From positions 1 through 20,498 of IMG/VR virus record IMGVR_UViG_3300006751_000194: 20,498 bases of DNA; one strand, given 5' to 3'. This DNA is from a virus. A model generated the notes under the pieces. The model saw only the letters and a list, made by a program, of their open reading frames with translations, had not been told where the DNA came from and did no database searches. Below, piece by piece: positions 249 to 20,498 of this stretch. Each line of letters begins with the position of its first letter. Within the stretch, counting starts at the first letter, position 1. A program made the position numbers and the translations under genes.

Positions 249-401
249 ATGTTAGTAATGGATATAGCAGAGTGGATAGGTAATATCTTAATACTAGGTA
301 TTGCCATGGTAATATGGGCTGTAGGCATCTTTATGGTTATGATGCTAATGTCAATGTTAAATAGGTTTATTAAAACACATATAATAAAGGAGAATGAATG
401 A
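249..401 (+). CDS. Small single-pass membrane peptide (50 aa), function unknown
   Basis: A 50-residue ORF starts at ATG 249 behind a strong Shine-Dalgarno and stops at TGA 399-401, sharing the ATGA junction with the ATPase gene at 398. After a short acidic N-terminus (MLVMDIAEW), residues about 10-38 are a continuous hydrophobic stretch rich in Ile, Val, Met and Ala. This is long enough for one transmembrane helix. A short basic/polar tail follows (NRFIKTHIIKENE). The size and layout fit small phage inner-membrane proteins, including some holins, but position inside a replication operon argues against assuming lysis. An alternative start at ATG 258 would shorten it by three residues. The perfect fit between flanking genes supports it being real. 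No family is recognised. Confidence 0.6.
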   Translation: MLVMDIAEWIGNILILGIAMVIWAVGIFMVMMLMSMLNRFIKTHIIKENE

Positions 402-1144
402 AATGTTTGATGTTTGATCTTGAACGTGGTTCGCAAACACTTGGAGGCCCAGATGAAATACAAGAGTTATTTGGATATCCAGTGCTTTCACCTACCACAT
501 TCGATCAATTTAAAAAGACCATATCTGAATTGTATACTGTTCAAAAAGCAGTACATAAGACAAAGATAGGTGAGTTAGAAATTGAACAAGAAGTGCTTGA
601 GACCGTTCCCAAAAATGGAACTCAAATAGATGCACTAATACTTGATACGTTCAGTGAACTATCAAAGAAGTACCAAAGAAGTCTTGTTGATAAAACAGGA
701 AAGATGAAGATGCAAGATTGGGGTAAACTCAAGAATACCCTTGACATGCTTCTAGAATTTATCACAAGAATACCAGGTGTTCTCGTAATGACCGTACATG
801 GGAAATTAAGAGACCTTGATGATGGTACAACAAAAGTATTGCCATATATAGATGGTAGCACCAAGGAAGACATAAGTAAATGGTTTGATTTTGTATTTTA
901 TACAAGAACTGTTGAAGCTCCAAATGGTGAGACTAAATATGTTTGGCAAACAAAGCATACTGAAAAGTATGATCATGCAAAAGACAGAACAAATCTATTA
1001 CCTTCTGAAATACCTCAAGATTTTCAGTTAGTGTTAGATGCTGTAAAAGAAAAGAACTTTACATCTGCAAAGATCCTCATCATAGGAAGTCCAGGATCGG
1101 GTAAGACGTGGAGTTTACAAACCTTAGTAAATAAGGAGTCATAA
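398..1144 (+). CDS. Sak4-like (AAA_24) RecA-superfamily ATPase, apparently circularly permuted
   Basis: Sak4-type proteins are ATP-dependent single-strand annealing/recombination ATPases, usually encoded beside an SSB, as here. The 248-residue protein starts (ATG 398, AAAGGAG 5 bases upstream) with MKCLMFDLERGSQTLG. That is the strand-plus-E-R-G segment that normally follows the P-loop helix. Walker B-like ALILD is at residues 79-83, DWGKLK near 107, a VMTVHGK strand with His134 after it, and WFDFVFYTRT at 162-171. The Walker A GSPGSGKT sits at residues 230-237, only 11 residues from the C-terminus, followed by WSLQTL. In ordinary family members Walker A is near residue 10. A TGA (395-397) directly before the start codon rules out an N-terminal extension. 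Joining C-terminus to N-terminus recreates the usual order. The stop overlaps the SSB start (TAATG). The family call is firm, and the permutation is read directly from motif order. Confidence 0.82.
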   Translation: MKCLMFDLERGSQTLGGPDEIQELFGYPVLSPTTFDQFKKTISELYTVQKAVHKTKIGELEIEQEVLETVPKNGTQIDALILDTFSELSKKYQRSLVDKTGKMKMQDWGKLKNTLDMLLEFITRIPGVLVMTVHGKLRDLDDGTTKVLPYIDGSTKEDISKWFDFVFYTRTVEAPNGETKYVWQTKHTEKYDHAKDRTNLLPSEIPQDFQLVLDAVKEKNFTSAKILIIGSPGSGKTWSLQTLVNKES

Positions 1145-1804: not shown

Positions 1805-2107
1805 ATGAGATACATAAAAGAAAAAACAATAAATATCATTAAGCATTTACTTAGTAACCATCCTCATTTAAGAGATGATGATAACAAATTACTTGCTACA
1901 GTATGGTATCATAAAATGTCAAAGATAGAAGAACCTGTAATGGATTTTCTACACATATTGGCTAAAGGTGATCTACCATCATCTGAATCAATAAGAAGAT
2001 GTAGACAAAGATTACAAGAACTTAATCCTGAATTGCGTGGAGAACTTTGGAATAAAAGACATCAAATGCAAAAACAGGTAAAAGATGAATTGAAGGAGAT
2101 GGAATGA
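1805..2107 (+). CDS. Conserved small phage replication-cluster protein (100 aa)
   Basis: A basic, largely helical 100-residue protein. Residues 57-82 carry the segment LPSSESIRRCRQRLQELNPELRGELW. I associate the S-x-E-S-I-R-R-x-R-x-x-L-Q-E-x-N-P-E-L-R-G pattern with small uncharacterised proteins found in phage replication clusters. The N-terminal half (about 10-50) looks like a helical bundle. No catalytic motif is visible. The start at ATG 1805 follows AAAGGA by about 7 bases, and the stop TGA overlaps the primase start as ATGA. Translational coupling to the primase-helicase suggests a replication accessory role such as loader, clamp or DNA-binding adaptor. That role is inference, and the function is unknown. 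Confidence 0.65.
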   Translation: MRYIKEKTINIIKHLLSNHPHLRDDDNKLLATVWYHKMSKIEEPVMDFLHILAKGDLPSSESIRRCRQRLQELNPELRGELWNKRHQMQKQVKDELKEME

Positions 2108-3849
2108 TCAAAGAGTTCGCTTTATCCCTATCAAACAGACATCATTTTCATGAAAGTAACAAGATGTCACAACTCGAAGGTACACCCCAAGATACCTTTA
2201 TGTCCTTATGGGACTATGATAAATATGTAATAGAATTTTTCAATAAGAAGAAGAAACTTGCTGGATTCGATGGTTTGATATACATGCCTGATGAATTAAT
2301 ACTTGATGTCGATGGAAAAGATGTTGATGAAGCAAAGTTTAAGACCCTTATGTTAATAGAACTATTATATAAGAAACAAATACCTTACCAAACATACTTT
2401 AGTGGACGTGGATTTCATGTGAACATACCTGGATCTGCATTTAAATGGGAACCTTGTAAAGATCTACATTTAAAAGTAAAGGACATGCTAACAGGAATAG
2501 GTGTATATAAATACGCTGATCCATCTGTAATAGACAAAACAAGGATAATAAGAGTTCCCAATACTCTTAATACCAAGTCAAAGAGATGGAAAATACCACT
2601 AACAGAAACAGAGTTTAGATCATTTTCATTAGAAAGTATTAAAAATCACCCAAGAGGAGACTTTAAATACCCTGAAATGAAATGTGATCCAGTGTTTAAT
2701 GTACTAGAAAGAGATAAAAAGACAGAAAAGAAAGAACCAATAGTTACAACTAAACTTGGAAGAGATCCTGATCCTACCAACTATACTTGTATACAATTAA
2801 TGTTAAAAGGTGTTGGTCAAGGTAGTAGGCACATGACAGCATTAAGATTGGGTTCACATTTAAGATGGAGATATCCTGAAAGTGTTGTTCGTCTCATAAT
2901 GGAAGATTGGAGACAACGTGTCGATAAACATAGCGTACCATTTACTAAGGAAGAATTAGATAAGATAATAACATCTTGTTACACTGCTAATGAAAATAGT
3001 GGTTACAACTATGGATGTAGTGATTCAATTAAAGATTCATTATGTCAACAAACTTGCTTTCTGTATAAATCAAAGAAAAATCAATCTGTGATGACAGCAA
3101 CTGACATGGAAAATGTCTTAATAGACTTCTATGCAAGTAATGTCAAGCCTATAAATTTCAATCAATTATATGAACAAGTAAAGAGTTTCCCTGTATACCC
3201 TGGTGAAGTAGTATTGTTACAAGCCCCTCCCAAGAGCATGAAAACAATGTTGCTGATGAACTGGATAAATTCATTCAAGAAGAACACTTACATGATGGAA
3301 TTAGAAATGTCCCCAAGACAGATGATGTCAAGATTCATCATGATAGAGAGAGGCTGGGATGAAGAGGATCTTGAAGTGCATTATTCAAGAAAGAAAAATG
3401 GACTCGATGTTGATTTTAGTTGGTTACAAGTTGACTATAACTCATGTTACCCATATGAAATAGAGAAACGCATACAAATGTTACCTGAAAAACCTGAAAT
3501 ACTTGTAGTTGATCATCTTGGTCTTCTAAGAAGTAGAATGAAGGATAATAACATGAAAGTAGAAGAAGCATCTCAAGTATTGACAGAATTAGCAGTTCAA
3601 CATGATCTGATAGTATTTGTCATAAGCGAGATAACAAAAAGTGCATTTCATGAAGGAATGAACATAGCATCTTCTAAAGGTTCATTTAGAGTAGCATATA
3701 ATGTTAATAAAGTATTATCCTTGGAACCCTTATTTGACGTAAAAGAGAAAAGTTTAATAAAGGGTTTAAAACTTGAGAGTACAGCAAATCGTGAAAAAGA
3801 AACACTATATGTAGATCTTTCACTAGATGGATTGAGGTTAGTAGGATGA
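2104..3849 (+). CDS. Bifunctional primase-helicase: AEP primase fused to DnaB/RecA-type helicase
   Basis: The 581-residue protein should make RNA/DNA primers and unwind DNA at the phage fork. The N-terminal archaeo-eukaryotic primase domain (about 35-185) shows motif I LILDVDG with D68 and D70, motif II FSGRGFHVNI with H105, and motif III RIIRVPNTLN (147-156). Residues about 230-325 form a helical connector ending in a Cys cluster (C305, C314, C318, perhaps C292), a PriCT-like or zinc-binding arrangement. The C-terminal RecA-like domain (about 345-581) has a P-loop APPKSMKT at 374-381 and Walker B ILVVD ending at D470. The P-loop is atypical: Ala replaces the first Gly and Met the Gly before Lys of G-x4-G-K-T. 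The start at ATG 2104 has AAGGAG 5 bases upstream, and both ends overlap neighbours as ATGA. No DNA polymerase is seen in this window. Confidence 0.85.
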   Translation: MIKEFALSLSNRHHFHESNKMSQLEGTPQDTFMSLWDYDKYVIEFFNKKKKLAGFDGLIYMPDELILDVDGKDVDEAKFKTLMLIELLYKKQIPYQTYFSGRGFHVNIPGSAFKWEPCKDLHLKVKDMLTGIGVYKYADPSVIDKTRIIRVPNTLNTKSKRWKIPLTETEFRSFSLESIKNHPRGDFKYPEMKCDPVFNVLERDKKTEKKEPIVTTKLGRDPDPTNYTCIQLMLKGVGQGSRHMTALRLGSHLRWRYPESVVRLIMEDWRQRVDKHSVPFTKEELDKIITSCYTANENSGYNYGCSDSIKDSLCQQTCFLYKSKKNQSVMTATDMENVLIDFYASNVKPINFNQLYEQVKSFPVYPGEVVLLQAPPKSMKTMLLMNWINSFKKNTYMMELEMSPRQMMSRFIMIERGWDEEDLEVHYSRKKNGLDVDFSWLQVDYNSCYPYEIEKRIQMLPEKPEILVVDHLGLLRSRMKDNNMKVEEASQVLTELAVQHDLIVFVISEITKSAFHEGMNIASSKGSFRVAYNVNKVLSLEPLFDVKEKSLIKGLKLESTANREKETLYVDLSLDGLRLVG

Positions 3850-5534: not shown

Positions 5535-5760
5535 CCTAGCAACTTATGAATATGACCAAGCATATGTAAAACAAACTGAAGAGATGGTAGGAAAATATGA
5601 AAGGAAAATAGATATAATGCTTTCAGATACAGACATTATAGTTGAGCATTTAAATAAAGTACAAGAAAAGTTAAATAAAGCAGAAGAAAGAATAAAATTG
5701 ATAGCAAACACATATCATCTTACAGAAGCAGTAGGGTATTTTAAGGAACCTATTAAATGA
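5527..5760 (+). CDS. Coiled-coil hypothetical protein (77 aa)
   Basis: After a short N-terminus (MTDLATYEYDQAYVKQTEEM) the protein is a nearly continuous charged helix (about 13-63) with Leu, Ile and Met at heptad-like spacing, for example DIIVEHLNKVQEKLNKAEER. It is then a short non-helical tail (TEAVGYFKEPIK). This is the pattern of a dimeric coiled coil of the kind seen in small phage adaptor proteins. No catalytic or metal-binding residues are seen. It shares an ATGA overlap with the downstream nuclease gene (TGA stop 5758-5760), so the two are likely made in coupled fashion and might interact. Function is unknown. Confidence 0.6.
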   Translation: MTDLATYEYDQAYVKQTEEMVGKYERKIDIMLSDTDIIVEHLNKVQEKLNKAEERIKLIANTYHLTEAVGYFKEPIK

Positions 5761-6077
5761 CACATCCAAGTAAGATCAAAGGAAATACATTTGAAAGAGA
5801 ATGTGTTAATAAAGCGAAAAATAAGGGTATAAAGGCCAAAAGAGCCTATGGGTCTAATGGAATGTCACTTGGACTAGAAGAAGAGGTTGACGCCCTTATT
5901 GGAGAATATAAAGTACAGTGCAAAAGAAGAAAGCGTATCGCAAAATGGATTAAGCCTCCTGATTGTTGTGATATTGCACTAGTACGTGAAGATAGGGGAG
6001 AAGCCTATGTCATCATGGAATATGAAGAATGGTTAGACCTTATTAAAAGAGCAGAACTATACTTAGATCTAAGTTAG
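5757..6077 (+). CDS. Hjc-like / PDDEXK nuclease, probable Holliday-junction resolvase
   Basis: This 106-residue basic protein has the layout of short archaeal-type resolvases. KGNTFERE (8-15) supplies the N-terminal Glu (E13), RAYGSNGMSLG (29-39) is the basic loop around the active site, and VDALIGEYKVQCKRRKR (44-60) gives D45 and Q54-x-K56. In the canonical PDDEXK site the last part is E-x-K; here Gln replaces Glu, a substitution seen in some PD-(D/E)xK families. DIALVREDRGEAYVIM (72-87) forms the following strands. The probable role is cleaving branched DNA made during phage recombination and replication, fitting the Sak4/SSB neighbours. A general recombination endonuclease is the alternative. 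It is the last gene of the + block and overlaps the oppositely coded 958-aa gene by 9 bases. Confidence 0.7.
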   Translation: MTHPSKIKGNTFERECVNKAKNKGIKAKRAYGSNGMSLGLEEEVDALIGEYKVQCKRRKRIAKWIKPPDCCDIALVREDRGEAYVIMEYEEWLDLIKRAELYLDLS

Positions 6078-8945
6078 TAATGTTAAAGCCTGGAGAGCAG
6101 CATCCGTACTTTGTGCGGGCTGCTTTCTCTTCGGGTATTTATATCTCATCCAGTCCTGTTTAAATACAGGATATAAATTTCTTCCTACCCATTTTTTAGC
6201 CGAATCTCTTATATCTTTTATATCTTGATCTGGAAATACACCAGTTTCTAATCTCATTGCATCAATAAGACCACGTTCATAAAGAATAGGTGTACTATAT
6301 GTGAAAGTCCTTGCCATTTGAGAATTGATAAGTGCAAGTGTTTTATACTTCTTTACTCTATCATCTACAAATTGAAGATCTTCTCTATATACAGCATCTC
6401 TATCCATTTCTCTAAAATTCTTTACTTCTGCTAAAGACAAAAGAAAACCAACATTAGGCCCAAGAAAATAATAACCACCTTGACCAAATGTTTTCTTTTC
6501 AAGTTTTTTTACAGCTTCTGGATCTTCCCTATCAGTAGTAAACCATGAATATGCAGCATCTGCTGTTTGTGCAACATCATTACTTAATACACTATCAGTT
6601 CTAATGTTTGTAAGTGGTGCAAATATATTATTGATCATTCCTGTTACAACACCTAACCTCATCATTACAAACATTTCTTCACTTGTAAAATCACCCGCTT
6701 TCATTGATACCTTAGCCTTGTTGTACCAATCATACATCATATCAAAATTTGAAAATCTATAATGCATGAACTGACCAAGAAATGTTCCTGCTCTACCCTT
6801 TATACCTGGCCCGCCTTGTAGTGCCTTGGCTTTTGCCCATCTAGCATACTCATAATGAATGTCAAGAACTGAATTATATCCTATCTGACCTGCTTCATTA
6901 GCCATCCATTTTGCTATTTTTTCACTACTACCATCAGCTTTTATATTTATACCTGATTTTTTAGATATCCATTCAGGTGACATGTTTTGAAGATTTTTGT
7001 ATGCAATAGCAAATCCCATTCTAAATGTTCTTGATCTATTCCAATCCTCGACAACCTTATGCATAAAGGCTGCTTTATCAGATAGTTTAGATGCTTGTCT
7101 AGCAACTATATCAGTAACACCATCGGTTGACCTTACTATTTCACCTTCAGCACTTACTTTCAAACCCTTACCTGTTAAAAACGATTCTTGCAATGCTCCT
7201 TGTGATGCTGCAGATATGTCACCTTTACCTTTAAATGCATCAAGAATTGAAGAACTCGCTTCTTTGCCATCAAACCATAAAAGACCAAATCTTTTAGCCT
7301 GGCTATTTGCAAGTTCAGCATTCTCTGTTCCACCAGCCTCAGTATAAAACTTTCTAGCATCTTTTAATCCTTTAAATCCCCATCTATTTAATTCATATAC
7401 TCTTTGGGTACCGTTACGAAGAGCACTACGCATATTGCCGCCTAATAACCTAAAATATGTTAATGCACTTAATGTTCTCATAATATTATCACTAACCACA
7501 GTATCACCAGCATCAAGTTTTTGAACTGTATTATATACATCAGCAGCAACCCTTAAATGATGTTCTAATGCTTCAGTAACTGTTTCATTTTTTGCTATTT
7601 TTGCAGGAGCTAAGTGTTCATTCATTAATGTGTCAGTTGCACGTTTAAAACTGTCTTTTACGTGTATCTTATAATTAAACAAAGAAACATCACCAACGTA
7701 CTTATTTAGGAACATGAATGGATCCAGACTATATTCACTATCAGCAACAGATCTTGATTTAGCTCTATCTATGATTCCATCAAGATTGGTAACTTCTTCT
7801 CTAATACTTTTCATTAATTCGGGTAGAGTTTCTCCTTCAAGGGGTTCTTTTCTAAGAGCTCTCTCTATTTTTCCGAGTATTTTTGGAATACCTAATACAT
7901 ATTGTGGCATATATTGTCTATTTGCCACCATGTAGTTATTTCCCTTTTTTGCAACATAATCACTACCTTCAGTAAATCCAAACATTTGCATTTGCTCGTC
8001 TGCTTTAAAATAATCAAGATCCTTTATTGGTTTTTCATTCTTATCGAGAACTTTTTGAAATTCAATTTCTTTTATACGATTTTTCATATCTGCAAGTATT
8101 TTATCCATACCAGGGATATTACTATCCTTGTTAATTGATATTACCTTTTGTAGACCTCTTATTAAATTAGTTGAGGTTGTCTTTCTTACCTCATTCCATT
8201 CACGCTTCATGTTGTTTAATAAAGATTCCTCTCTAGCACCAAATCCATGTTTTTTTCTAAGCTCTGGTATACTTGCACCTTGAAACACTTCTGATAATAT
8301 TACATTTGCTTTACCAGCACCATTTGTAAGCATATTCATTTTTTTATGTCTTAGTTCTTGGTATAAACTCCGATTTATTGTTTTACCTGCAGATTTATTT
8401 GCAATAATTGGCTCTAATTGTGCTTCTAATTGGCTATATTCCTTAGGATTTCCACCTAACGCACCTGAAAACTTTTTAAAATTATGCAATATATCGTTTA
8501 TGCGTTTATTATTATCAACATTTTCCCTTCTAAAAAATCCTGTTTCAGCTACTAATTCCTGTTGATATTTATTAAGTTCTGGTAATCTCATTAATATACG
8601 CCTTGGAAGTTTAAGATTGGCCATTACAGCACCATCCTTAGTACCAAGTATTCCATTAAACTCTTGAAGTCTTATCTCAAACTTCTTAACATCCTTTAAA
8701 TTGGGTATGGCACCCTGTATTGGATCTAAGGGTATTCCTGTGGCTTCTTCATATATACGCTCAAATTGTTCAAATGTATTATATTTAGAGTCCCTTATGT
8801 TTTTATACCTTGCACCTGTTTGCCAATCAGCAGCTATTTTAGTCATACGCTCATGTACCTTCTTTTTCTTTTGCGGAGACATTCTTTCTCCCTTAGCTCT
8901 TTTCTTATTTAAAACATGAGAAGCGCAAGATAATATACTAGACAT
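6069..8945 (-). CDS. Large virion-associated (putative ejected internal) protein, 958 aa
   Basis: The protein begins with a very basic segment (about 12-35, KKRAKGERMSPQKKKKVHER), continues as a mostly helical, polar protein and has conserved-looking Arg/Gly/Asn-rich patches such as RLLGGNMRSALRNGTQ around 497-512. The C-terminal third is more hydrophobic (FLGQFMHYRFSNFDMMYDWY, then FVMMRLGVVTGMINNIFAPL). Proteins of this size and texture encoded after a giant protein in phages are usually internal or ejection proteins related to the large polyvalent protein class; this assignment is inference from context. Start ATG 8943-8945 has AGGAG 7 bases upstream on the minus strand. It lies 102 bases after the giant gene and is the last gene of the minus block. 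Its 3' end carries the + strand terminator hairpin within codons about 941-950. Confidence 0.7.
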   Translation of the reverse strand: MSSILSCASHVLNKKRAKGERMSPQKKKKVHERMTKIAADWQTGARYKNIRDSKYNTFEQFERIYEEATGIPLDPIQGAIPNLKDVKKFEIRLQEFNGILGTKDGAVMANLKLPRRILMRLPELNKYQQELVAETGFFRRENVDNNKRINDILHNFKKFSGALGGNPKEYSQLEAQLEPIIANKSAGKTINRSLYQELRHKKMNMLTNGAGKANVILSEVFQGASIPELRKKHGFGAREESLLNNMKREWNEVRKTTSTNLIRGLQKVISINKDSNIPGMDKILADMKNRIKEIEFQKVLDKNEKPIKDLDYFKADEQMQMFGFTEGSDYVAKKGNNYMVANRQYMPQYVLGIPKILGKIERALRKEPLEGETLPELMKSIREEVTNLDGIIDRAKSRSVADSEYSLDPFMFLNKYVGDVSLFNYKIHVKDSFKRATDTLMNEHLAPAKIAKNETVTEALEHHLRVAADVYNTVQKLDAGDTVVSDNIMRTLSALTYFRLLGGNMRSALRNGTQRVYELNRWGFKGLKDARKFYTEAGGTENAELANSQAKRFGLLWFDGKEASSSILDAFKGKGDISAASQGALQESFLTGKGLKVSAEGEIVRSTDGVTDIVARQASKLSDKAAFMHKVVEDWNRSRTFRMGFAIAYKNLQNMSPEWISKKSGINIKADGSSEKIAKWMANEAGQIGYNSVLDIHYEYARWAKAKALQGGPGIKGRAGTFLGQFMHYRFSNFDMMYDWYNKAKVSMKAGDFTSEEMFVMMRLGVVTGMINNIFAPLTNIRTDSVLSNDVAQTADAAYSWFTTDREDPEAVKKLEKKTFGQGGYYFLGPNVGFLLSLAEVKNFREMDRDAVYREDLQFVDDRVKKYKTLALINSQMARTFTYSTPILYERGLIDAMRLETGVFPDQDIKDIRDSAKKWVGRNLYPVFKQDWMRYKYPKRKQPAQSTDAALQALTLLT
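6096..6124 (+). terminator. Strong hairpin terminator at the convergent junction
   Basis: The arms are AGCAGC (6096-6101) plus CCGTAC (6104-6109), paired with GTGCGG (6113-6118) plus GCTGCT (6119-6124). This is 12 bp with a 2-base bulge and a TTT loop. On the + strand a pyrimidine-rich tract (TTCTCTTC) follows, as in an intrinsic terminator. The opposite strand has no good U-tract. The hairpin lies 19 bases after the nuclease stop and inside the 3' end of the minus-strand 958-aa gene (about codons 941-950). Confidence 0.75.
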
Positions 8946-9047: not shown

Positions 9048-12000
9048 TTAATCCAATGTAAGACATTTGAATAACTCTTCGACCCTACCTTTAGTTGATT
9101 CTTTTATTGAACCACCTTGACCCATGTTTCTACCTCTATATGCATCGATCATACCAAAGTTTCTTACTTCTATATCACCAAATGTATTTGTCTGTCTATC
9201 ATAAACTTTCATCATGAATTGCTGATCAACGGGAATACCATTTCTTTCCATTTCTTTTGATGCTCTATAAAGAGTAGCAGAGTCAACAAGTTTTTTACCT
9301 GACATATAATCATACATGATGCCTGCTGCTTGACGTTGTTTTGAATTCCCATCTCTTAATAACTGGAATATTCCTTTGTCTAAATATTGAGCGTCGGTCA
9401 TATATCCGTTAGGTAATTCAGTAGGCTCTGTAAATCCTACCTTTTCTAATTTTCTCATATCAACTTCAATACCAGTACGTTCCTGCACATAATAATTTCT
9501 TGATGTAGCAATAAGGTCTCTAAGTAATTCATTAGCACTTATCTTATCTAACCCACCCTTTGCTTGAACACTTCCATTGGCAACCTGTGAAAGAGTATTA
9601 TATACAGTCTTTGCTAATTTGTTTTCTATGTATTTTACAGATCCTATGCTTGATGTTCTAGAATGGTTTCCAAACCTCATTGTTTCTATGGGAGACACAT
9701 TTGGATCCCAACTAGGTCTTAACATTCTAGCCAATAAAGCAAATTGCCGTGCTGGTTGATCAGCAAAATCAGGACTTGCAAGTTTATCGAGAATTAAAGC
9801 AGTACGCCTAGCAGCATACTCACCTAAAGCAGATTGAGTACGATCAGGTAAATTTGCATAAGCATTATTTATATCTGATCGTAAATTATTATATTCTCTG
9901 TCTATAAATACTTGTTCGGCTCTTGATATATGATCAATCCTTCCGTCTTTGTGAACATATCTTACTTCACCACCAAATGCTTTGTAATCAGCCCTTAGTC
10001 CCGTTTGGATCTCACCTTCAACTATCTCATATCTATGACCATTTATTACTAATTTATCTGAAGCGCCTAAAAATTTAATATTAGACTTACCGGGAAGTAC
10101 AACCTCTCTTGTTTCACCTTGTTTATTTATAATAACTACGGGCTTATTTTTAAAGTTTGTATATACCCCTGGCTTTCCTCCCTTTTTCTTTACAGGATTA
10201 TAGTCATAATCATTTTTTGGATTACCTGGATCATAAGATAATCTTTCTTCAATGATTGATTTTAATTCTTCTGTTCGTACTTTCTTTTCTAATAAACTTT
10301 TATATTCTGCAGTACTTTGTATATCATTACCTCTACCGCCTATGCTATTTAAGTATTCCAGCTTACCATTGATTCTTCTAAGATCTGCAGCCATAAAATC
10401 AAGCTGAGCAATATCACCAGATTTCATTTGCATTTCTCTCATTGCTGTTTCAGCTATCCTATTCATTTGAAATTGATCAGCTATTTCTGGTGCTATGTCC
10501 TTAGGTAGTGTCCAATTATTTGGAACCCTACCTGATTGTATGTATTCTAATATCCTATGCGAACTTGGTTTACTTTCGTCAAATGAATGATTTTTATTAG
10601 CAATGCTATTTAATCTTCTCATTGCAAAATCAAATGGATTTTGAGATCTATCAAAAAAGTTATTTGCAGATTCATACATACCTGTATTATCGTATATACC
10701 ATCTATTACCTTATGATTTCTACCGTGCTTTGGAAGAATAGAGAACATAAGACCTTGCCTTGCACGTTGATAGTCTTGTAAAGTTGCTGACATATCTCTA
10801 TTGGTCTCATCAACAGTAGTACCCTTATTATACCTCAAGTATTTATTTATAGGTGAAATGAGACCATAGTATATATCATCTCTTACTTGTTTCATCCTTT
10901 CAGACTGATAATTAATATTCTCTTTTAATATTGAACCATCTTTTCCATCACGAAGTTCAAATAGTCCTTTATGCTCTACCCCACCACGATTAAATCCAAA
11001 GAATAATTCCCTCATTAAGGCATCCGGATTTTCTGTATAAAATTTAGGATTCTGTTTATACATGTCTAAAAATAGTTTTACACTAGAAGATACCTCATCA
11101 ACTGTATCAAAATATCTAAGCTTATCTACATTTAATCTTACTTCCATCATTCTATGAGGGTCGTTTAAATGTTTCATATTTACTAGCAGAGGTGATTCTC
11201 TATATATATTATGTAGATATGTAAGAGTTTGATGCATTTTTACAAATCTACCCCTTGTTAGATCAGTAGCATTCATTTCGGCTTTATATTGCTGTGGATC
11301 TCCTTCAAAGGTAAATAGTTCTGGTGATGCTTTACTAAATACATCATCAAATATTGCATTTAACCCTTTAATATCATTAACTGTTCTATATCCAGAAAGT
11401 CTAGCAGCCTCAGCCCATAATCTATTAGGTGCAGCAACAAATGAAGATGATTTATCCATGTCATAATCAGCATCTTGTGGATTGATCGCATCAGCATGGT
11501 TCATTCTACTACTATTACCTGCAAGATCACCATTATGGGTAACAATTTTACCATCTTTACCTTCAAATGCTTTTAATCTAGATATCACAAGATCACCAGC
11601 TTGGTTCCTTGGTTGTCTATTATTTATTGAACCAACGGCCATTGTGTTATCGAATTGATAAAGTTCTGTCATGGCCTCACTATAATTAACATTATCTAAA
11701 TTTTCTAATCTTGCTAAGAATTCATTCTCTTTTTTCTCTACTTGCTTAAACAGATTTCTATTTAATGCTTGTGCCTTTTTAACATCTGAGTCTTTAGTTT
11801 TTGAATCAAGTTGGTACTCTAATTTAGAATCATTATATATATCCCTTAGATTACCATCCTTATCTATTGCTTTACCTTCTATGATAAGATATTTTTCACC
11901 ACCACGCTTAACCATGAATGCGTCAGATTTTCTTTGAACAAGTTCTCCACCAGAATTAGCATTAGAATGATCAACACGCTGTATTATAACACTTTGAACA

Positions 12001-15000
12001 TCTGGTCTATCTTGTGTTCCACCTAGTTTAAAAGGTTTTTCAGCAGAGTGCTTTGACTGTAAGAATTCTCCATATAATTGTACAGATCTTGTTCCGTCTG
12101 CTTCGCTTCTCATGACAGAGGTTTTTAAGCCACCCATGTCTGCTGTCATTACATCTAGAGACCCTTCTGGTACACGACCTGCTGCGATCATACCATTATT
12201 CATGAAATAGGGTATTATCTTTTCTTCTATCTTTGTTCTTTGCCAGGGTGATGTAAGCAAGCCATCATGTTTTAAGAAATGATCAATACCCGTGTTAAGC
12301 CATGTCATGTCACCTGTTTCAGATGAATGAGCAAATAGATCCTTGGCTAGTCTTGTGGCATAATATGGATCTACATAATTCTCAAATGAATGATATACAT
12401 TATCTAGTTTAGCATCAAGATTTATCCATTCTCTTATACCTACATTGTGGTGCATATGTACACCAAGATTGGAACCTACCAATGGGTCATGTGGTTGACC
12501 TAATGATTTTAAGTTAATAGACTCAAATGGTATCTCACTTATATTTGTCTTGTCAAAAATAATATTATCCTTAGAAAGCCAATCGCTAACAGATGCAAAA
12601 TCTTTAGATAGTTTATCAAAACTTTCTATGGGCTTAAGTGAAGCATGTACGTTTCTACCACCATCTCGTATAGTAGATTCCATTGCTTTAAGATCTGTAT
12701 TATACCAATCACTTGTGTTGTTATTTCTAAATTCATTTACTTTATTAGATGAATTAAATGTTATCCCATCTACTCCAAGCCTGTCAAGTAATGCATCAAA
12801 CTCAGGATTATATTTAAATGCTGTCTTTGAATAATATTCCTTAACCCTACCATACGATGCCATGTCAGACATATCTGTTTTGATGTCTGTATGTGATATA
12901 GTTGGTTTTATACCACCAACTTTTATTTCCTTTACACTTCCATCTGGATTAAAAGATACCATATCTGGACTTATGCCACCCATCATTGCAAGATTACCTA
13001 TGAATGCACGTTTAGATAAGAATGTCTCACCATCTACTATAGACTTTGTAAGTTTTTCATAACTTTGAATATTATCATCATATGTTCTTTGACTAATGAT
13101 CTCTTTACTTAAAAGTTCTGATAACTCAGCTTTCTTATGGTCGATAGATGAAAATATATTAACCTTGCCACCTTCATGAACCATTTCATCAGCAACGGTT
13201 AGCATTTTTAACTTTGGAAACTTTGCATTCTTATCCTTTGGTAGGAATATTCTAGCCTGATCTAGTACATTCTTAAAAAAACCAGACCTATCTGAATCTG
13301 CAGCCCCCTCTAAAAACGACCTTACCCTTGCAAGGTTTTCTTCATGACCTACGAATCCATTCTTCATCTCACTTAATTTGAGATACTTCCAGGCCTTTTT
13401 CCTTTCTTCTGTCGGTAGATCAGCCCATTTCCTTATTAAGGATGGTCTATCATTTATCAATCTTGTAAGAACTATTGCATCGTGAATATCATTATCTCTT
13501 AACTTACCCTCATTGATCCTGTCAACCAGTTCAAGCATTTTTGATGGAAATTGATTTTGATCTAATGAGGCTTGAAGTTTTTCATATAGATGCCCACCTG
13601 GCATTCTATCTCCATTAGCATCTTCCCCAGATCTACGAAAACCAGAAAGAAGATCTTGCTGTATTCTATTATCACGACCCATCCTAACAAGTATCAATGT
13701 ACTTTCATCGGCTGCTATAACTTTAAATCTTTGCTTGCTTAGATCAATGGTATTATTACCTTGTGCCTTTGCATGATCCTCTACTTTCTTCTTGTCGCCT
13801 AAGAACTCCCTGAATCCATTTTCCATTTCAACAGGAACACCTTCACCAGATTCTAACTCCTTTATTATACGATCCATCTGTCTTCTAGATGGTTTTGAAA
13901 CGTATTTCCCATCTATATAAAAACTATTACTTAGTAATGATATCTCAGATGTAGCATTTAAGGCTGAAATTATACCCTGTACGCCATGTTTTTCCGTATA
14001 GCCTACCTGCTTATTGGCTAACTCTAAACGACCTGTTTTATAAGTATATTGTTTTATAGGCATACTACTAAAGTATGCAGTAGTTATAGAACTTATATCA
14101 GATAATAGCCTTTGATTGAATGTGTTCCAACCACCTTCGGGCTCCATAACTGCCTTACTTCTATGCCTTATTTGCTCATTATATTTTATACCAGTCATTA
14201 GGGGCTCTACTATCTGCTGCCAAAATTTAGCGGGATCAGGTGTTCCTGATTTTTTTATTACACTGCTAACATACTCCCTAGTCCTTTGTATTTCTCTTAC
14301 CTGTTCTGGAGTAAAGACCCTTACCCCTCCATGCGTTGCTGTAGGATCTATCTTATTCAATACTCTCATGATACCTTCACCAGTCTTTTCCATGGTAGTA
14401 CTCATTGATTTATAAGATAAGAACATATCTGTCATATCAGTAATATTTAAATTATATCTCTGTGCAAACTGAGAAGAAGAAACACGCAAAGCAGTATCTA
14501 TCTGATCCTTGGCTGGTATTGTAAATCTTTCCATTTGTTTATGTGCTTCCTGTACAACGTTTAATTCTGTCCAACCATTTCTATGGGCTTCACTTAATGC
14601 CCTTTCTGCCTGTCTTAATATTTCTTGAGTATATTTAGCATGGGTTCCATCAACAGAAGATTCACGTACAAGTTCCAATAGATCAGAAACCTTGGTCATC
14701 CTTGACTCAAATGCATGAACCATTAACCCATCTCCTGAATCCAATGCTGTTTTAAACTGCCTTACTGCTTGTAGCATGTCTCCATGACTAGCATCATAAA
14801 GAGATTTTAATTTTTTTTGTTCAACTGTGTTCGCTCCACGTTGAGCAGCGGCTGCTCGAAGTTCAAGACCAAATACTTCTGCCTCACTTATTACATCTTG
14901 AAAATGATCTATGACCTCAGTTATTCTTTCAACAGCAAATTGGCTCGCTCTTCCCTTACCAGTGAGCATGGATGACCTAATAGCCTCATACCAGGCACCC

Positions 15001-18000
15001 GGTGTTTGCTCCACCATGTTTCTTATTTGTATGGAACCCAGCCTTGAATCTTGTATAGTACCTACAACCTTTTCATAATAATCCTTTACTTCTTCATATG
15101 TTTGTTTTTCCATGGCATTTGTTTCTCTTCTTGGAAACATTGCTTTTAACATATCTGTTACTTGGTTTACTTCAGGTATCTGCATGCCTGTATCACGCAT
15201 GAATTCTCTATTGGTTACAAGTTCATGTACTGCAGCATGCATATTATAACCACCAGATAAACGACTTATACCAAGTGTTTTTATTGATTTACCAACAAGG
15301 TATCTTTGCATGTTCTCATACATTTTATCATTAGTTACTACATCACCAAGCATTCGTGACCATTGTTCGTGTAGTTCTAGAAGTCTTGAATCTGAAATAC
15401 TTCTTTGTGCACCAGCATTATTCTCAGGCTTTACAAGATTAATAAGTTTATGCACACGCTTCATGTCTTTATGAGCAGTAGCGAGATCAGCATTAGGAGA
15501 GATTGAAATATCCTCTATTACTTCTTTTGTATCTTTATTGATTACATCTGGAAATCTATTCCCAGACAGTTCATCTCTTAATCCTTTATATAATTGATTA
15601 GCAGTATTCTCATCAAGCGAATGATCACCAGAGCCCTTTAATACTCTTTCAACGTTTAATCTATTAGCGGCCTCAGAAAGCCTTGTATGTACAACGTACC
15701 AAGGGTCTTGTCTTAATATGGAATGATCTCTTCCTTTTGCGTCCCAAGCATCTCCATAAACATATTGCATCAGTTTATCAACAGACCTTTCTTTAACGTT
15801 AATACTTTCCTTGATCATTTCTGTACTAGCTGTTTCATGAGTTGGACGTGCAAATCTTACAACATCTGCTGCTTCTAGTTTTTTAGTTGCCTCAACAAGA
15901 CTAAGTAATGCTTCTCCAGCATCAGATCTTGTACCATCACGCCTATTTGTATTAGCATCGAGGTAAGATGTAAACAGATCCTTGCTCAATCTAGGAACTA
16001 CTATCTTACCATTTATCTCTTCTACGTTAGGAACTCCAAGTTCTGTATACATGTCAATAACAAATTGCTTTATTATATTAATGGGTACATTTGCCTCTCT
16101 TTCTATTCTATTAGCATACCAATCATGTAGTTGATCTCTAGATTCTTTTTTAGTTAACCTTGTTCCATCAAACGTAGTTGAAGATAATTTTTCTATAAGA
16201 TTTGCCGCAGCCTCCTTTGTAAGACTTTGACTTATATCCATTGTTCTTGTTGAATTTGCATTATGAAACTCAACTATATTTTGAGCAATACTCAATTTGT
16301 CACGCCATTGTGTTTTTTCAACTGGATCTTTTACATTCTCTGCTATATACTTAGCACCAGCCGTTCTAAGACCTCCTGCTGGTTCCTGCCCTTCAGGCAC
16401 AACATACTTTTCAGTAGTATGAGGCTCTATTGTTTCCTTTATTGATTGTATTTCCTCAGAGCTTTCAAATGATTTACTGTATATTTTGTTATCCATTTTT
16501 TCAGGATTAACATCACTAAACCCACCATATTTCTGTGCTATTTTTAATGCACTTTCAAAGTTTTTACCACCTATTAAATTCAAACCAGTAACGGTTTCAC
16601 TAAACTGTTTCCCTTTTTGTGAAGCAAACTCTTTTACCTTGCCCGTTTGAAATGGCCCAGTTGGATAAGGAGAACCATGTAAATGAAATGAATGAGGTGT
16701 TCTTGTAAAATACATTGCAGTCATTATGTTTGAAATTTTCTCATAATCAGTTGCGCCAAAACCTTCCATGAAGTTTTTTACACCATGGTTCTTAACAGTT
16801 TCATAAAGACTTGTTAGATTCATTGCAACAGCACCTGTCATCATCCTAGGTAAACTATAGAACATATCTGCACCAACCACTCTTAAAAAATCACCAGGTG
16901 CATCCTTTAAAAATGTCTTACGGGCCTTTGTTAGAAATTCACGTAATTCTTTTAAAGCATCATCAGCATTTTCTTTCGACATTTTACTAATACCTTCCCA
17001 AAACTTTCCTCTTCCAGCATAGCCTAGATCAATTAATATATTACCTCCACTCAAATTATGTAATAACTCAGCATTTGTTTCAAGTTGAGTAGGGGTCATT
17101 TTACTTACAGGTCTTAAAGAATTAATAACACCACGTGTCATATCACGGGTTTTGGTTATAGAACTAGTACGACTACCACCTCTTATAAATTTAACTGGCC
17201 CTAGTATTGAAAATATTGCTGCTTCATGCCCTGCTGTTTCAAGTACATGACCTAATGCAGATTTATGAAGAGCCATTGAATCTTCAGGATTCTCCCAATT
17301 ATAACTTTCATTTATCTTATACTCACCAAAGCCTCTTACTGCACCAATAACAGTACCAAGTATTGCATCATAAGTACTAGCACCTGCTATCCCCCCTGCA
17401 ATTCTAGCTTTATCAGTATCCCCAAATGCCTTCTTTGCTAAATTTAAAGCAGCATTGTCTATTAAGTTCTTTCCTTCACTAGGACTTCTTCTTAGTGCTA
17501 TTTGAAATGCTTCATCTGCAAATTCTGTTAAAAGCGCATCATCAATATTTCCTAATATTGGACGCAAAGCCTCTTCCTTTATTGCAAGCTTTGCTCCTTG
17601 TTGAAAAGCCCCATCAGCAAGTTTTTTATTTGCCTGATAAAATGCACCAGACTTTGATACAATATCAAGAGCACTTGTTGCTATATCAGTCGCTACTTCT
17701 TCTGTTAATTCCTGTGCTCCCTCCTTTTGACCAGCAGTATAGACAACCTTTCCAAATGTTTGAACAATATCATCCTGTGCTAATTTAGTTGCAGTCTTTA
17801 AGCCACCTTGTCCTACACCTATAAGTTGCGCACCTTTAGCAGTCGCTCTTACTCCACCACCCATGACCCTCCCTAACCAACCAAAACTAACTAACATACC
17901 TGCAGCATTACCTACGGTATATCCTATCTTACCAGGGAGTGTAAGCTCTCTGTCTGTTGCTGATGCGGTAAAGTCACCAGCGTATGATTCTTTATCTTGA

Positions 18001-18263
18001 CCTAGCGTAAGAGCTTTTGCTGGTATACTTGTTACAATATTTTCCCATCTATTTGTTTTACCAGTAGCGGCTTCTTCAACTGCATCTGATATTTCAGGAA
18101 TACTCCATCCGAAACCAGTTGAGAATCCCCATGCTGTTTGACCCAATGCTTCAAATACAGTAGGTATAACACCTTCTCTTTGAGAAGGCATGGTTTCTGT
18201 TGAGATTTCAGGGTTCTGTATCTCTTCTAAAAGAGAATCTATATTATAAGGATCGTATCCCAT
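9048..18263 (-). CDS. Giant virion protein (3071 aa) containing a double-psi-barrel RNA polymerase active site
   Basis: Residues about 111-137 (GKIGYTVGNAAGMLVSFGWL onward) and 286-313 are Gly-rich hydrophobic segments, as in ejection proteins that touch membranes. Around 2216-2225 is R-x-P-x4-G-D-L (NRQPRNQAGDL), and about 40 residues later DADYDMDK at 2264-2271. This matches the spacing and order of the RNA polymerase beta'/RDRP active-site barrel (R-x-P, then N-A-D-F-D-G-D in bacteria, D-x-D-G-D in QDE-1). Upstream, DGITFNSSNK ending at K1841 may hold the lysine of the partner barrel. The remaining ~2000 residues are helical, polar and unassigned. The likely role is a packaged polymerase ejected with the genome to transcribe early genes, as shown for the crAss-like phage phi14:2 enzyme. 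T7/N4-type motifs were not found. The gene starts 2 bases after the upstream stop with no clear ribosome-binding site, so it is probably translationally coupled. Confidence 0.8.
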   Translation of the reverse strand: MGYDPYNIDSLLEEIQNPEISTETMPSQREGVIPTVFEALGQTAWGFSTGFGWSIPEISDAVEEAATGKTNRWENIVTSIPAKALTLGQDKESYAGDFTASATDRELTLPGKIGYTVGNAAGMLVSFGWLGRVMGGGVRATAKGAQLIGVGQGGLKTATKLAQDDIVQTFGKVVYTAGQKEGAQELTEEVATDIATSALDIVSKSGAFYQANKKLADGAFQQGAKLAIKEEALRPILGNIDDALLTEFADEAFQIALRRSPSEGKNLIDNAALNLAKKAFGDTDKARIAGGIAGASTYDAILGTVIGAVRGFGEYKINESYNWENPEDSMALHKSALGHVLETAGHEAAIFSILGPVKFIRGGSRTSSITKTRDMTRGVINSLRPVSKMTPTQLETNAELLHNLSGGNILIDLGYAGRGKFWEGISKMSKENADDALKELREFLTKARKTFLKDAPGDFLRVVGADMFYSLPRMMTGAVAMNLTSLYETVKNHGVKNFMEGFGATDYEKISNIMTAMYFTRTPHSFHLHGSPYPTGPFQTGKVKEFASQKGKQFSETVTGLNLIGGKNFESALKIAQKYGGFSDVNPEKMDNKIYSKSFESSEEIQSIKETIEPHTTEKYVVPEGQEPAGGLRTAGAKYIAENVKDPVEKTQWRDKLSIAQNIVEFHNANSTRTMDISQSLTKEAAANLIEKLSSTTFDGTRLTKKESRDQLHDWYANRIEREANVPINIIKQFVIDMYTELGVPNVEEINGKIVVPRLSKDLFTSYLDANTNRRDGTRSDAGEALLSLVEATKKLEAADVVRFARPTHETASTEMIKESINVKERSVDKLMQYVYGDAWDAKGRDHSILRQDPWYVVHTRLSEAANRLNVERVLKGSGDHSLDENTANQLYKGLRDELSGNRFPDVINKDTKEVIEDISISPNADLATAHKDMKRVHKLINLVKPENNAGAQRSISDSRLLELHEQWSRMLGDVVTNDKMYENMQRYLVGKSIKTLGISRLSGGYNMHAAVHELVTNREFMRDTGMQIPEVNQVTDMLKAMFPRRETNAMEKQTYEEVKDYYEKVVGTIQDSRLGSIQIRNMVEQTPGAWYEAIRSSMLTGKGRASQFAVERITEVIDHFQDVISEAEVFGLELRAAAAQRGANTVEQKKLKSLYDASHGDMLQAVRQFKTALDSGDGLMVHAFESRMTKVSDLLELVRESSVDGTHAKYTQEILRQAERALSEAHRNGWTELNVVQEAHKQMERFTIPAKDQIDTALRVSSSQFAQRYNLNITDMTDMFLSYKSMSTTMEKTGEGIMRVLNKIDPTATHGGVRVFTPEQVREIQRTREYVSSVIKKSGTPDPAKFWQQIVEPLMTGIKYNEQIRHRSKAVMEPEGGWNTFNQRLLSDISSITTAYFSSMPIKQYTYKTGRLELANKQVGYTEKHGVQGIISALNATSEISLLSNSFYIDGKYVSKPSRRQMDRIIKELESGEGVPVEMENGFREFLGDKKKVEDHAKAQGNNTIDLSKQRFKVIAADESTLILVRMGRDNRIQQDLLSGFRRSGEDANGDRMPGGHLYEKLQASLDQNQFPSKMLELVDRINEGKLRDNDIHDAIVLTRLINDRPSLIRKWADLPTEERKKAWKYLKLSEMKNGFVGHEENLARVRSFLEGAADSDRSGFFKNVLDQARIFLPKDKNAKFPKLKMLTVADEMVHEGGKVNIFSSIDHKKAELSELLSKEIISQRTYDDNIQSYEKLTKSIVDGETFLSKRAFIGNLAMMGGISPDMVSFNPDGSVKEIKVGGIKPTISHTDIKTDMSDMASYGRVKEYYSKTAFKYNPEFDALLDRLGVDGITFNSSNKVNEFRNNNTSDWYNTDLKAMESTIRDGGRNVHASLKPIESFDKLSKDFASVSDWLSKDNIIFDKTNISEIPFESINLKSLGQPHDPLVGSNLGVHMHHNVGIREWINLDAKLDNVYHSFENYVDPYYATRLAKDLFAHSSETGDMTWLNTGIDHFLKHDGLLTSPWQRTKIEEKIIPYFMNNGMIAAGRVPEGSLDVMTADMGGLKTSVMRSEADGTRSVQLYGEFLQSKHSAEKPFKLGGTQDRPDVQSVIIQRVDHSNANSGGELVQRKSDAFMVKRGGEKYLIIEGKAIDKDGNLRDIYNDSKLEYQLDSKTKDSDVKKAQALNRNLFKQVEKKENEFLARLENLDNVNYSEAMTELYQFDNTMAVGSINNRQPRNQAGDLVISRLKAFEGKDGKIVTHNGDLAGNSSRMNHADAINPQDADYDMDKSSSFVAAPNRLWAEAARLSGYRTVNDIKGLNAIFDDVFSKASPELFTFEGDPQQYKAEMNATDLTRGRFVKMHQTLTYLHNIYRESPLLVNMKHLNDPHRMMEVRLNVDKLRYFDTVDEVSSSVKLFLDMYKQNPKFYTENPDALMRELFFGFNRGGVEHKGLFELRDGKDGSILKENINYQSERMKQVRDDIYYGLISPINKYLRYNKGTTVDETNRDMSATLQDYQRARQGLMFSILPKHGRNHKVIDGIYDNTGMYESANNFFDRSQNPFDFAMRRLNSIANKNHSFDESKPSSHRILEYIQSGRVPNNWTLPKDIAPEIADQFQMNRIAETAMREMQMKSGDIAQLDFMAADLRRINGKLEYLNSIGGRGNDIQSTAEYKSLLEKKVRTEELKSIIEERLSYDPGNPKNDYDYNPVKKKGGKPGVYTNFKNKPVVIINKQGETREVVLPGKSNIKFLGASDKLVINGHRYEIVEGEIQTGLRADYKAFGGEVRYVHKDGRIDHISRAEQVFIDREYNNLRSDINNAYANLPDRTQSALGEYAARRTALILDKLASPDFADQPARQFALLARMLRPSWDPNVSPIETMRFGNHSRTSSIGSVKYIENKLAKTVYNTLSQVANGSVQAKGGLDKISANELLRDLIATSRNYYVQERTGIEVDMRKLEKVGFTEPTELPNGYMTDAQYLDKGIFQLLRDGNSKQRQAAGIMYDYMSGKKLVDSATLYRASKEMERNGIPVDQQFMMKVYDRQTNTFGDIEVRNFGMIDAYRGRNMGQGGSIKESTKGRVEELFKCLTLD
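11454..11618 (-). other. RNA polymerase catalytic motif (R-x-P ... GDL ... DxDxDxD) within the giant gene
   Basis: This segment codes residues 2216-2270. R2216 and P2218 start the R-x-P element, G2223-D2224-L2225 matches the P-G-D element of RDRP-type enzymes, and D2264, D2266, D2268 and D2270 form the metal-binding cluster. The best-conserved triad is probably D2266/D2268/D2270. Bacterial beta' has about 35 residues between R-x-P and NADFDGD; here it is about 48. The Gly of DGD is Met here, so it is closer to crAss-like/YonO-type variants than to cellular enzymes. Confidence 0.72.
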
Positions 18264-18265
18264 TA

Positions 18266-19282
18266 CTATTGGTCTGAGTAGTCATATTGTGGATCCCAAA
18301 CGTCTATTTCTTCAGTAAATGTAATTGGATCCACTTGTGAAGAATCTGCTTGATAGTCCTTTATGGCTGCTAATGCCTCATCGGCTTGCATAAAAGGATT
18401 CCTGTCAAATCCTTCAAGCCTTGCTATTTCCTCAGGTATTGGTAGAAAATCAGGAGGGCCTTCTCTTAATGGATCAACCATTCTAGATAAAGCCATTAAA
18501 GGCTCAGGATCATTGGCCATGGGACTCAGTGGTTGAGGATCCATTTCGGATGAAGGAGTATGTAAAACAAAATCTTCATTACTAGCAGTAACTGCTCTAC
18601 CAAGAGGGTTGGCTTCGATTATCCCTATATATCTTTCTCTCATATCTCTATATTCTTCAGTATCAGGTATTGTCTTATATACTTCACCTAATTGCCTTGT
18701 TAAATCATCCCTTATTTTTAAATTTCTATTTAATTCCGTTAATTTTTCACCAAATCTTTCATCACCGTAAGACGCAGGACTTAACAGAACATCGCTTTCC
18801 TTAGATAGTTCTTTACTATATTGATATAATACCCTATCAAAGTATTCCATTCCCTCTGTTGGTGGAAGTTTAAAAAGATAAGATTCGGGCCTAAGATGAA
18901 ACTTAACACCAGTTTCTGGCCTTAAACCCTCAGCCTCTTCGGCTTTTTCTTTCCCAGCAATACTCATTTTCTCTCTCCAACCAGGTATAGCGCCTTTGGG
19001 CTTAGAAGTGATTATGTCTGGAAAGTCAATAGAATGTTCTGGAGTATCTATTGTATTTATTAAACTATCCAATCTAATACTGTCTGCTTTTATACTATCA
19101 GTTACAGCAGTGTATGCTTGATCAAATACAGTAGAATCCATATTCCTTAATGAATCTGGAGTTATGTTTAAAAATTGTGCAGTCTCCTTTACTTTAAACA
19201 CATTATCCATTGAGTCTATTTTAGTCTCGACTGCCTCATCAAATTCAGTTTCGGCTATCATATCTATTAACCAATCACTCAT
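18266..19282 (-). CDS. Acidic virion-block protein (338 aa), unknown function
   Basis: The protein is strongly acidic and mostly low-complexity helical/disordered. The N-terminal 90 residues contain repeated D-S-I/L patterns (TDSIKADSIRLDSLINTID). The middle (about 130-225) is more globular and charged. The C-terminal third is Pro/Asp/Glu-rich with the repeated D-P-x-P-L motif (MDPQPL, NDPEPL) and ends DPQYDYSDQ. The start at 19282 is supported by GGAG 8 bases upstream on the minus strand and overlaps the upstream gene by 8 bases; 2 bases separate it from the giant gene. Its context suggests a small partner, chaperone or scaffold for the giant RNA-polymerase protein. That is inference only; no family is recognised. 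Confidence 0.65.
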   Translation of the reverse strand: MSDWLIDMIAETEFDEAVETKIDSMDNVFKVKETAQFLNITPDSLRNMDSTVFDQAYTAVTDSIKADSIRLDSLINTIDTPEHSIDFPDIITSKPKGAIPGWREKMSIAGKEKAEEAEGLRPETGVKFHLRPESYLFKLPPTEGMEYFDRVLYQYSKELSKESDVLLSPASYGDERFGEKLTELNRNLKIRDDLTRQLGEVYKTIPDTEEYRDMRERYIGIIEANPLGRAVTASNEDFVLHTPSSEMDPQPLSPMANDPEPLMALSRMVDPLREGPPDFLPIPEEIARLEGFDRNPFMQADEALAAIKDYQADSSQVDPITFTEEIDVWDPQYDYSDQ

Positions 19283-20498
19283 CTGACCACTCCGCTATTG
19301 ATTTTAATACCTCAGCTCTACCATATTTTTGAATTATTTGAGGCACTAATGTTTTTGTAAGTTCTTTATCTCCAGAATCATGAGCATTCTTTAATAAAAG
19401 ATAATCAGTTGTAAGTTTAAATGGCTTGTTAGAGTCTTTCCCAGGTGTTATTAGACTTTGTAAGGAAGCGTCATCAATTGAAACAAAACCTTCATTATTA
19501 ACTTTTAATTGAAACTCATCCATTGCTTCTTGACTTGATACATCTATACCTGTAACCTGTTCAAAAGCAAAAGCAAGTTCTTGAGCCTCCATCAGTTTCC
19601 CTTCCTTTATTAAATCATTATAGTCCATTGCTCTTTTTTTCGATAGAGACATTAGATCCAATCCTGTGCCTGGCACACCAGAGGCTCCCTTTAAGCCTTG
19701 AACTGCATTAAACCCCTCTACATAGATAGTTTCTAATGCTTGCTGAATTTTAGGAGCAACATTAGTAAGTGTTGCTTGTTGAAGCTCAGTTAAACCCTTT
19801 GGCATCTGTCCAGTTGAATTATATTTCCTAATAATATCTAAACTTAATCCTTGCCCCTTGACACTTTGTAATATTTTATTATAACTAAGGGGATCAATAC
19901 TAGCGGCTAAATTATCTTTTGCTCTTTGAAGCTTTGCTACGTCTAATGCATATGCTGCCCTTTCTCCAATTCTTTCTTCATCACTATAGCCAGAAACAAT
20001 AGTTGACTGCTTTAATAGATCACTAAATGGATTTAAAGTATTAGTCGCCACATTTGTATAAATAGACTTATATGCTTTATCTGTTGCTTGGGTGTCTAAT
20101 TTACCCTGAGTAGTCTCATTAGATTCCCTACTTGCATCTATGACATGTTGCTTATATTCTATATTTATAAGACTCATGGCATCTAGACCCATTGCCTTAT
20201 TCATTGCCGCAATATCCATTTGAGTAGGTTTAACATAAGCATCTTTAAGCCATGGTTTTATATCTAGATCAATACCGCTTACGTCTGCATAACCACCCTC
20301 ACCCTCAAGCATAAAATCGCCTGGATCATATGCTTTTGAATCGGTACCACCCTCATATCCTCCTGCACCACCACTGATGTATTTTTTCATTTTACTAATA
20401 TCTTCAATCCTAGATAAGGCTTGCATTTTACCAGTGTCTAAACGATCAATAAGTTTATTTATATCTGTTATTTCTTGTTTTAATTTACCAAAAACCCC
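19275..20498 (-). CDS. Virion-block protein, 5'-partial at the right window edge (>=407 aa)
   Basis: Although an ATG lies at 20424-20426, the frame stays open to the right edge (24 more codons reading GVFGKLKQEITDINKLIDRL and on). The gene therefore probably starts outside the window, and the N-terminal visible part looks coiled coil. The protein is helical and polar, with a Gly/Tyr-rich patch (GGAGGYEGGTDSKAYD) about 40 residues into the visible part. No catalytic motif is recognised. The stop TGA overlaps the start of the 338-aa gene by 8 bases, indicating coupled translation. By position at the head of the giant-protein cluster it is likely a virion structural or ejection component. This assignment rests only on context. 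Confidence 0.6.
   Translation of the reverse strand, partial: GVFGKLKQEITDINKLIDRLDTGKMQALSRIEDISKMKKYISGGAGGYEGGTDSKAYDPGDFMLEGEGGYADVSGIDLDIKPWLKDAYVKPTQMDIAAMNKAMGLDAMSLINIEYKQHVIDASRESNETTQGKLDTQATDKAYKSIYTNVATNTLNPFSDLLKQSTIVSGYSDEERIGERAAYALDVAKLQRAKDNLAASIDPLSYNKILQSVKGQGLSLDIIRKYNSTGQMPKGLTELQQATLTNVAPKIQQALETIYVEGFNAVQGLKGASGVPGTGLDLMSLSKKRAMDYNDLIKEGKLMEAQELAFAFEQVTGIDVSSQEAMDEFQLKVNNEGFVSIDDASLQSLITPGKDSNKPFKLTTDYLLLKNAHDSGDKELTKTLVPQIIQKYGRAEVLKSIAEWSDE

Follow-up and report, generated by a model that had tools for sequence, protein, structure and literature searches.

What does a phage make from an open reading frame of 3,071 codons among its structural genes, and does the virion carry the product? 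The question arises in IMG/VR record IMGVR_UViG_3300006751_000194, a 20.5-kb virus record whose positions 1 to 20,498 are the window analysed here. A preliminary description of this DNA had noted RNA polymerase-like motifs within the encoded giant protein, P0001, and had proposed a virion-borne polymerase of possibly separate lineage. The analysis reported here makes it quite likely that P0001 is a packaged, ejected, single-chain two-barrel virion RNA polymerase that transcribes early genes. The polymerase assignment is the firm part of this reading; virion location and early transcription would follow from gene position and from the example of gp66, the virion RNA polymerase of the crAss-like phage phi14:2.

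The gene and its motifs are arranged as follows (window coordinates):

9048-18263, minus strand: P0001, the 3,071-aa giant with the predicted polymerase; about 1,600 aa precede the core and about 500 aa follow it.
10464-13436, minus strand: predicted two-barrel RNA polymerase region, residues 1610-2600 (the span modelled with AlphaFold2 and matched to PDB 6vr4, gp66).
13020-13046, minus strand: KSIVDGETF, residues 1740-1748, paired with gp66 DAQAWIT in the profile alignment.
12804-12827, minus strand: KTAFKYNP, residues 1813-1820, with K1813 invariant in alignment A5; gp66 LKYS resembles it by eye.
12741-12770, minus strand: DGITFNSSNK, residues 1832-1841, conserved, with K1841 aligned to gp66 K1065.
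11589-11618, minus strand: R2216-x-P-x4-G-D-L, predicted start of the catalytic (DPBB-A) barrel, with R and P invariant.
11451-11474, minus strand: DADYDMDK, residues 2264-2271, picked out by invariance and aligned with gp66 SDFDIDK.

Three of these motifs had been named beforehand (RxPx4GDL at 2216-2225, DADYDMDK at 2264-2271, and DGITFNSSNK at 1832-1841), and each is present at those residues; the region first delimited, 10614-13166, corresponds to residues 1700-2550. The arginine motif reads R2216-Q-P2218-RNQA-G2223-D2224-L2225. Residues D2266, D2268 and D2270 are predicted to bind Mg2+, and K1841 may be the lysine of the partner barrel (DPBB-B), in the position of gp66 K1065.

P0001 and its relatives' giants matched nothing in Pfam or PHROG, and a profile search of PDB sequences with the giant returned chance matches to TCP-1 eta only. 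Neither tblastn of the P0001 region, and of giants or cores from four relatives, against a set of 50,697 phage records (phi14:2 included), nor a search of GTDB genomes for relatives of the giant, found any. No published description of the family was found among openly available papers; the BFVD database of predicted viral structures holds unnamed entries that are related proteins already deposited.

Relatives came from four IMG/VR scans, which yielded 41 loci; a DNA-pattern scan for QDAD[FY]DxDK recovered nearly the same contigs, plus three more. The giant-protein family comprises about 44 viral contigs, with identity down to ~20%, and every complete relative is a single ORF of ~2,950-3,210 aa at the same genomic position. 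There are two clades, about 80% different from each other: clade A, which includes the window's giant, carries N-x-R-Q-P-R-N...DAD[FY]DxDKS; and clade B carries [LV]R-x-P...ND...DADFDLDKS.

Fourteen residues are invariant across 38 relatives: R2216, P2218, G2249, N2255, D2258, Q2263, D2264, A2265, D2266, D2268, D2270, K2271, S2272, and D2400. Nine others are at least 90% conserved within this family, whose pairwise identity falls to ~20%: K1786, P1787, K1813, T1814, P1820, D1832, F1836, S1838, and K1841. Invariance extends to K1786, K1813 and K1841 in A5, an alignment drawn from both clades. When the whole ~3,000-aa protein was ranked by conservation (35 full-length copies, gap-rich columns set aside), these nine positions, along with R2216, P2218, D2258 and P2262-S2272, proved the most conserved of all; alignments A4 and A5 concur. 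Since such residues persist among relatives at identities down to ~20%, the P0001 motifs are not chance occurrences. The DxDxD metal motif preceded by R-x-P, one mark of two-barrel RNA polymerases, is invariant in the 38 relatives; a second, a conserved lysine N-terminal to the catalytic barrel, is supplied at the sequence level by K1841. Lysines in a predicted first barrel, with R-x-P and DxDxD in a predicted second, form the layout expected of these enzymes. A motif scan of four related contigs found no second protein with R-x-P plus DxDxD, bar a second giant on the composite contig G006.

Substitution patterns agree that the region is maintained: purifying selection acts on the polymerase core, with dN/dS of 0.085 against an 88%-identical relative and 0.19 against another. 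A catalytically dead or repurposed two-barrel derivative, kept as a structural or ejection protein, would accord with the giant size of P0001, and with the 2,830-aa second giant of G006, in which what can still be recognised is the N-terminal ~400 aa. Nevertheless, all the catalytic-type residues have stayed invariant in a protein otherwise diverged to ~20% identity; with relaxed function these residues would have been lost, and we regard a dead enzyme as very unlikely.

Structure prediction also points to a polymerase fold. The first AlphaFold2 model, of residues 1610-2600, was built from a 38-sequence alignment and has pLDDT 82.2 and pTM 0.83, with only ~60 pLDDT in the catalytic loop. Among 350,542 PDB chains, Foldseek returned a sole match at E <= 1e-3: 6vr4, phi14:2 gp66 (E 6.3e-6, probability 1.00, TMq 0.33, a partial fold match). 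The predicted P0001 core thus has a significant global fold match to gp66. Lower ranks include QDE-1 and the largest subunits of cellular RNA polymerases, among them Rpb1 (81 columns, 3.0 A, 21% identity). In BFVD, crAss-like phage proteins match at 1e-5 to 3e-8 and make up most of the named matches with E <= 1e-3; the "Putative RNA polymerase" cr111_1 matches at 1.5e-3. A second model, of the ~20% identical clade-B relative L038 (pLDDT 76, pTM 0.79), again placed 6vr4 gp66 on top, at a non-significant E of 0.011 (probability 0.95), above non-significant matches to RNA polymerases and Cas9. This is a repeat rather than a fully independent test, because some sequences occur in the alignments of both models.

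A sequence link to gp66 (Phi14:2_gp077 in KC821624, 2,180 aa) was sought with profiles. In 81 crAss-type RNA polymerases the near-invariant residues are K1012, K1027, K1065, R1322-I-P1324, and D1361-F-D-I-D-K (gp66 numbering). Comparison of 36 giants with 55 crAss RNA polymerases gave four local matches, individually weak but all collinear: P0001 1729-1762 with gp66 949-980; 1822-1851 with 1046-1075, in which K1841 equals K1065; ~1969-2090 with 1176-1324; and 2264-2284 with 1359-1377, in which D2266/D2268/D2270-K2271 equals D1361/D1363/D1365-K1366. DADYDMDK is thereby equated with GSDFDIDKM of the crAss enzymes. The best single match scored 27.9 versus 26.1 in decoys, whereas the collinear chain scored 93.6 versus 42.5 for the best of 60 decoys, block-shuffled and reversed. 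With the first alignments hhalign had done no better than shuffles; it was the improved alignments and the chain test that rose above all 60 decoys. The chain supports, but does not prove, homology between the giants and crAss RNA polymerases.

DxDxD loops are also found in Ca-binding proteins, and a giant without a sequence-family match could be a large structural protein in which DADYDMDK is an unrelated metal loop (EF-hand or dockerin-like). We consider this the least probable account: the fold matches are to RNA polymerases, the distant R-x-P and lysine motifs are conserved along with DADYDMDK, and the whole is collinear with the crAss enzymes. Fold search, residue conservation (K1841 included) and collinear profile matches together support the double-psi-barrel polymerase originally proposed. 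For the C-terminal half of P0001 the prediction is a two-barrel RNA polymerase that is a distant relative of the crAss-like virion enzyme.

Which tailed phages carry this gene? Related contigs of 50-60 kb encode a phrog_38 terminase, a portal of the P22 type (phrog_156), and a major head protein (phrog_1328), in the order terminase, portal, capsid, tail and smaller ORFs, giant, and a ~1,000-aa ORF. This structural operon, with the giant gene at its end, faces a convergent module of Sak4, a ~195-aa ORF, and a primase-helicase. In the window the corresponding genes are:

398-1144, plus strand: Sak4-like annealing ATPase of the convergent replication module (PF13479, 5.8e-16; phrog_124, 8.5e-26).
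2104-3849, plus strand: primase / DnaB-like helicase of the replication module (phrog_16345, 3.5e-16; phrog_19, 4.9e-18).
6069-8945, minus strand: P0002, a 958-aa ORF with no family match, adjoining the giant gene in every relative with a sequenced flank.
18266-19282, minus strand: 338-aa ORF in the same structural operon as the giant.
19275-20426, minus strand: 383-aa ORF in the same operon, whose longer frame runs off the window.

P0002 is possibly an accessory or partner virion protein. The window also encodes a 106-aa RusA-like Holliday junction resolvase (5757-6077, plus strand; phrog_244, E 1.2e-7). In the related contig G002, a Prok-JAB peptidase gene adjoins a ThiF/E1-like gene just upstream of Sak4 (L087:1941-3468, plus strand), together a pair of ubiquitin-like conjugation genes within the early region; by eye, G015 has similar ORFs. 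The structural operon of G002 (L088:11230-12701, minus strand) further encodes a 357-aa protein that weakly matches an IS1595-type zinc ribbon and a 126-aa M15-type peptidase, a possible lysin.

The phrog_38 and phrog_156 families are present in all 15 of 15 contigs, and the lineage's terminase shares ~24% identity with its counterparts in phages including ICP2 and ICBM2. These are not the crAss terminase, portal and major capsid families; those of phi14:2 are phrog_6681, 6547 and 11589. Because the families differ, the phage is not crAss-like by its head genes, even though its overall genome layout resembles that of phi14:2. The suggestion of a separate lineage is supported by the terminase, portal and major capsid families. 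Its original argument, that a Sak4, OB-SSB and primase module is not usual in crAss-like phages, falls, since phi14:2 has Sak4, a ~200-aa ORF and primase in the same order (gp045-047).

As regards active-site barrel geometry, packaging, ejection, promoter use and early transcription, we infer the following. Residues ~1700-2560 would form a single-chain double-psi beta-barrel DNA-dependent RNA polymerase. One barrel would provide K1841, probably with K1786 and K1813; R-x-P and the metal site DADYDMD would belong to the other. Gene order, with the giant gene following the tail genes, would put the protein in the ejection-protein slot, where the structural operon of a phage of the short-tailed type ends. 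The polymerase would probably be packaged in the virion and ejected into the cell ahead of the DNA or together with it, and would there transcribe the early genes before the host's RNA polymerase is required or taken over. For carriage in the virion, as first proposed, the support is gene order. A search of one relative's early region for a repeated virion RNA polymerase promoter motif yielded nothing convincing. A non-virion RNA polymerase was also sought with PF00940, which gave no match in 15 related contigs, a weak negative because its control was silent everywhere too.

Two-barrel folds are not confined to virion enzymes: the class includes RNA-dependent RNA polymerases (QDE-1) and PolD (PMC10770324), so the giant might instead be a primer-making or replicative polymerase, or an RNA polymerase made during infection. 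This is unlikely, though less so than a dead enzyme, for the giant gene sits among structural genes at the ejection-protein position, the top fold match is a virion-packaged polymerase, and the replication module already has its own primase-helicase. These phages probably inject, along with their DNA, a transcription machine of their own.

The 82.9-kb contig G006 (L090-L094) adds a further form. Its replication and structural modules are repeated, and it looks like two related phage genomes joined end to end, either an assembly chimera or a concatemer. Its second giant (2,830 aa; L093:3962-12451, minus strand) shares ~400 N-terminal aa with the family (hmmsearch E 6.6e-21), whereas its motif, at residue ~2038, is R-G-P-R-K-G-P-S-D...GDWDGDH rather than that of the family. 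Judged by these motifs, it appears to be a third clade with a more canonical-looking active site. The common N-terminus suggests a packaging or ejection module that may carry different polymerases. A bolder proposal, to which we give slightly less than an even chance, is that these two-barrel virion RNA polymerases make up a third lineage, separate from the others, in phages whose head genes are unrelated to those of Crassvirales, within a podovirus-type ejection protein, and with at least three clades (including the DWDGD site on G006), so that one giant scaffold bears very different active sites.

If the virion polymerase reading is true, injected cellular-type RNA polymerases reach beyond crAss-like, Thermus and jumbo phages, and such injection is standard in a phage lineage known only from metagenomes. 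The family would enrich the tree of two-barrel polymerases with many diverged sequences, and would suggest more than one incorporation of such polymerases into giant ejection proteins. K1841, D2266/D2268/D2270 and the fragment ~1600-2600 of P0001 are directly expressible, testable targets.

The closest known system is phi14:2 gp66 (Crassvirales, PDB 6vr4), the top fold match of both the P0001 and L038 models. Each is a single chain with collinear K...R-x-P...DxDxDK motifs, and each gene lies near the end of a structural block convergent with replication genes. The differences are substantial: the window's region has no BLAST-level similarity to phi14:2; DADYDMDK stands against SDFDIDK; lysine and Asp motif are 425 residues apart rather than 296; the proteins are 3,071 and 2,180 aa long; and the terminase, portal and capsid families differ. 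The gp66 protein was found in phi14:2 virions by MS/MS; the virion location of P0001 is proposed from gene order. RNA-polymerase-associated proteins of crassviruses travel as cargo in the virion and are probably partly unfolded when ejected (PMC10172136).

P0001 is also giant in the manner of the N4-type virion RNA polymerases, with virion location and ejection suggested by its genomic setting. The N4 enzyme has a T7-like single-subunit fold, unlike the two-barrel fold predicted for P0001. According to PMC12633501, the N4-type enzyme of Schitoviridae is a giant virion protein of ~3,500 aa ejected in a DNA-ejectosome.

Thermus phage P23-45 gp96 likewise places a two-barrel polymerase with DxDxD inside a giant virion protein: a clamp-less RNA polymerase that forms the N-terminal part of a tape measure protein of 5,002 aa (PMC10770324). 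It was absent among the matches listed in the two PDB fold searches. P0001 does not have an N-terminal polymerase on a tape measure protein; its polymerase lies in the C-terminal half (~1700-2560 of 3,071) of an ejection-type protein. Giant virion proteins with two-barrel RNA polymerases are thus already known in gp66 and gp96, and the best reading of P0001 is that of a new lineage of virion RNA polymerases, single-chain and two-barrel, within a giant ejection-type protein.
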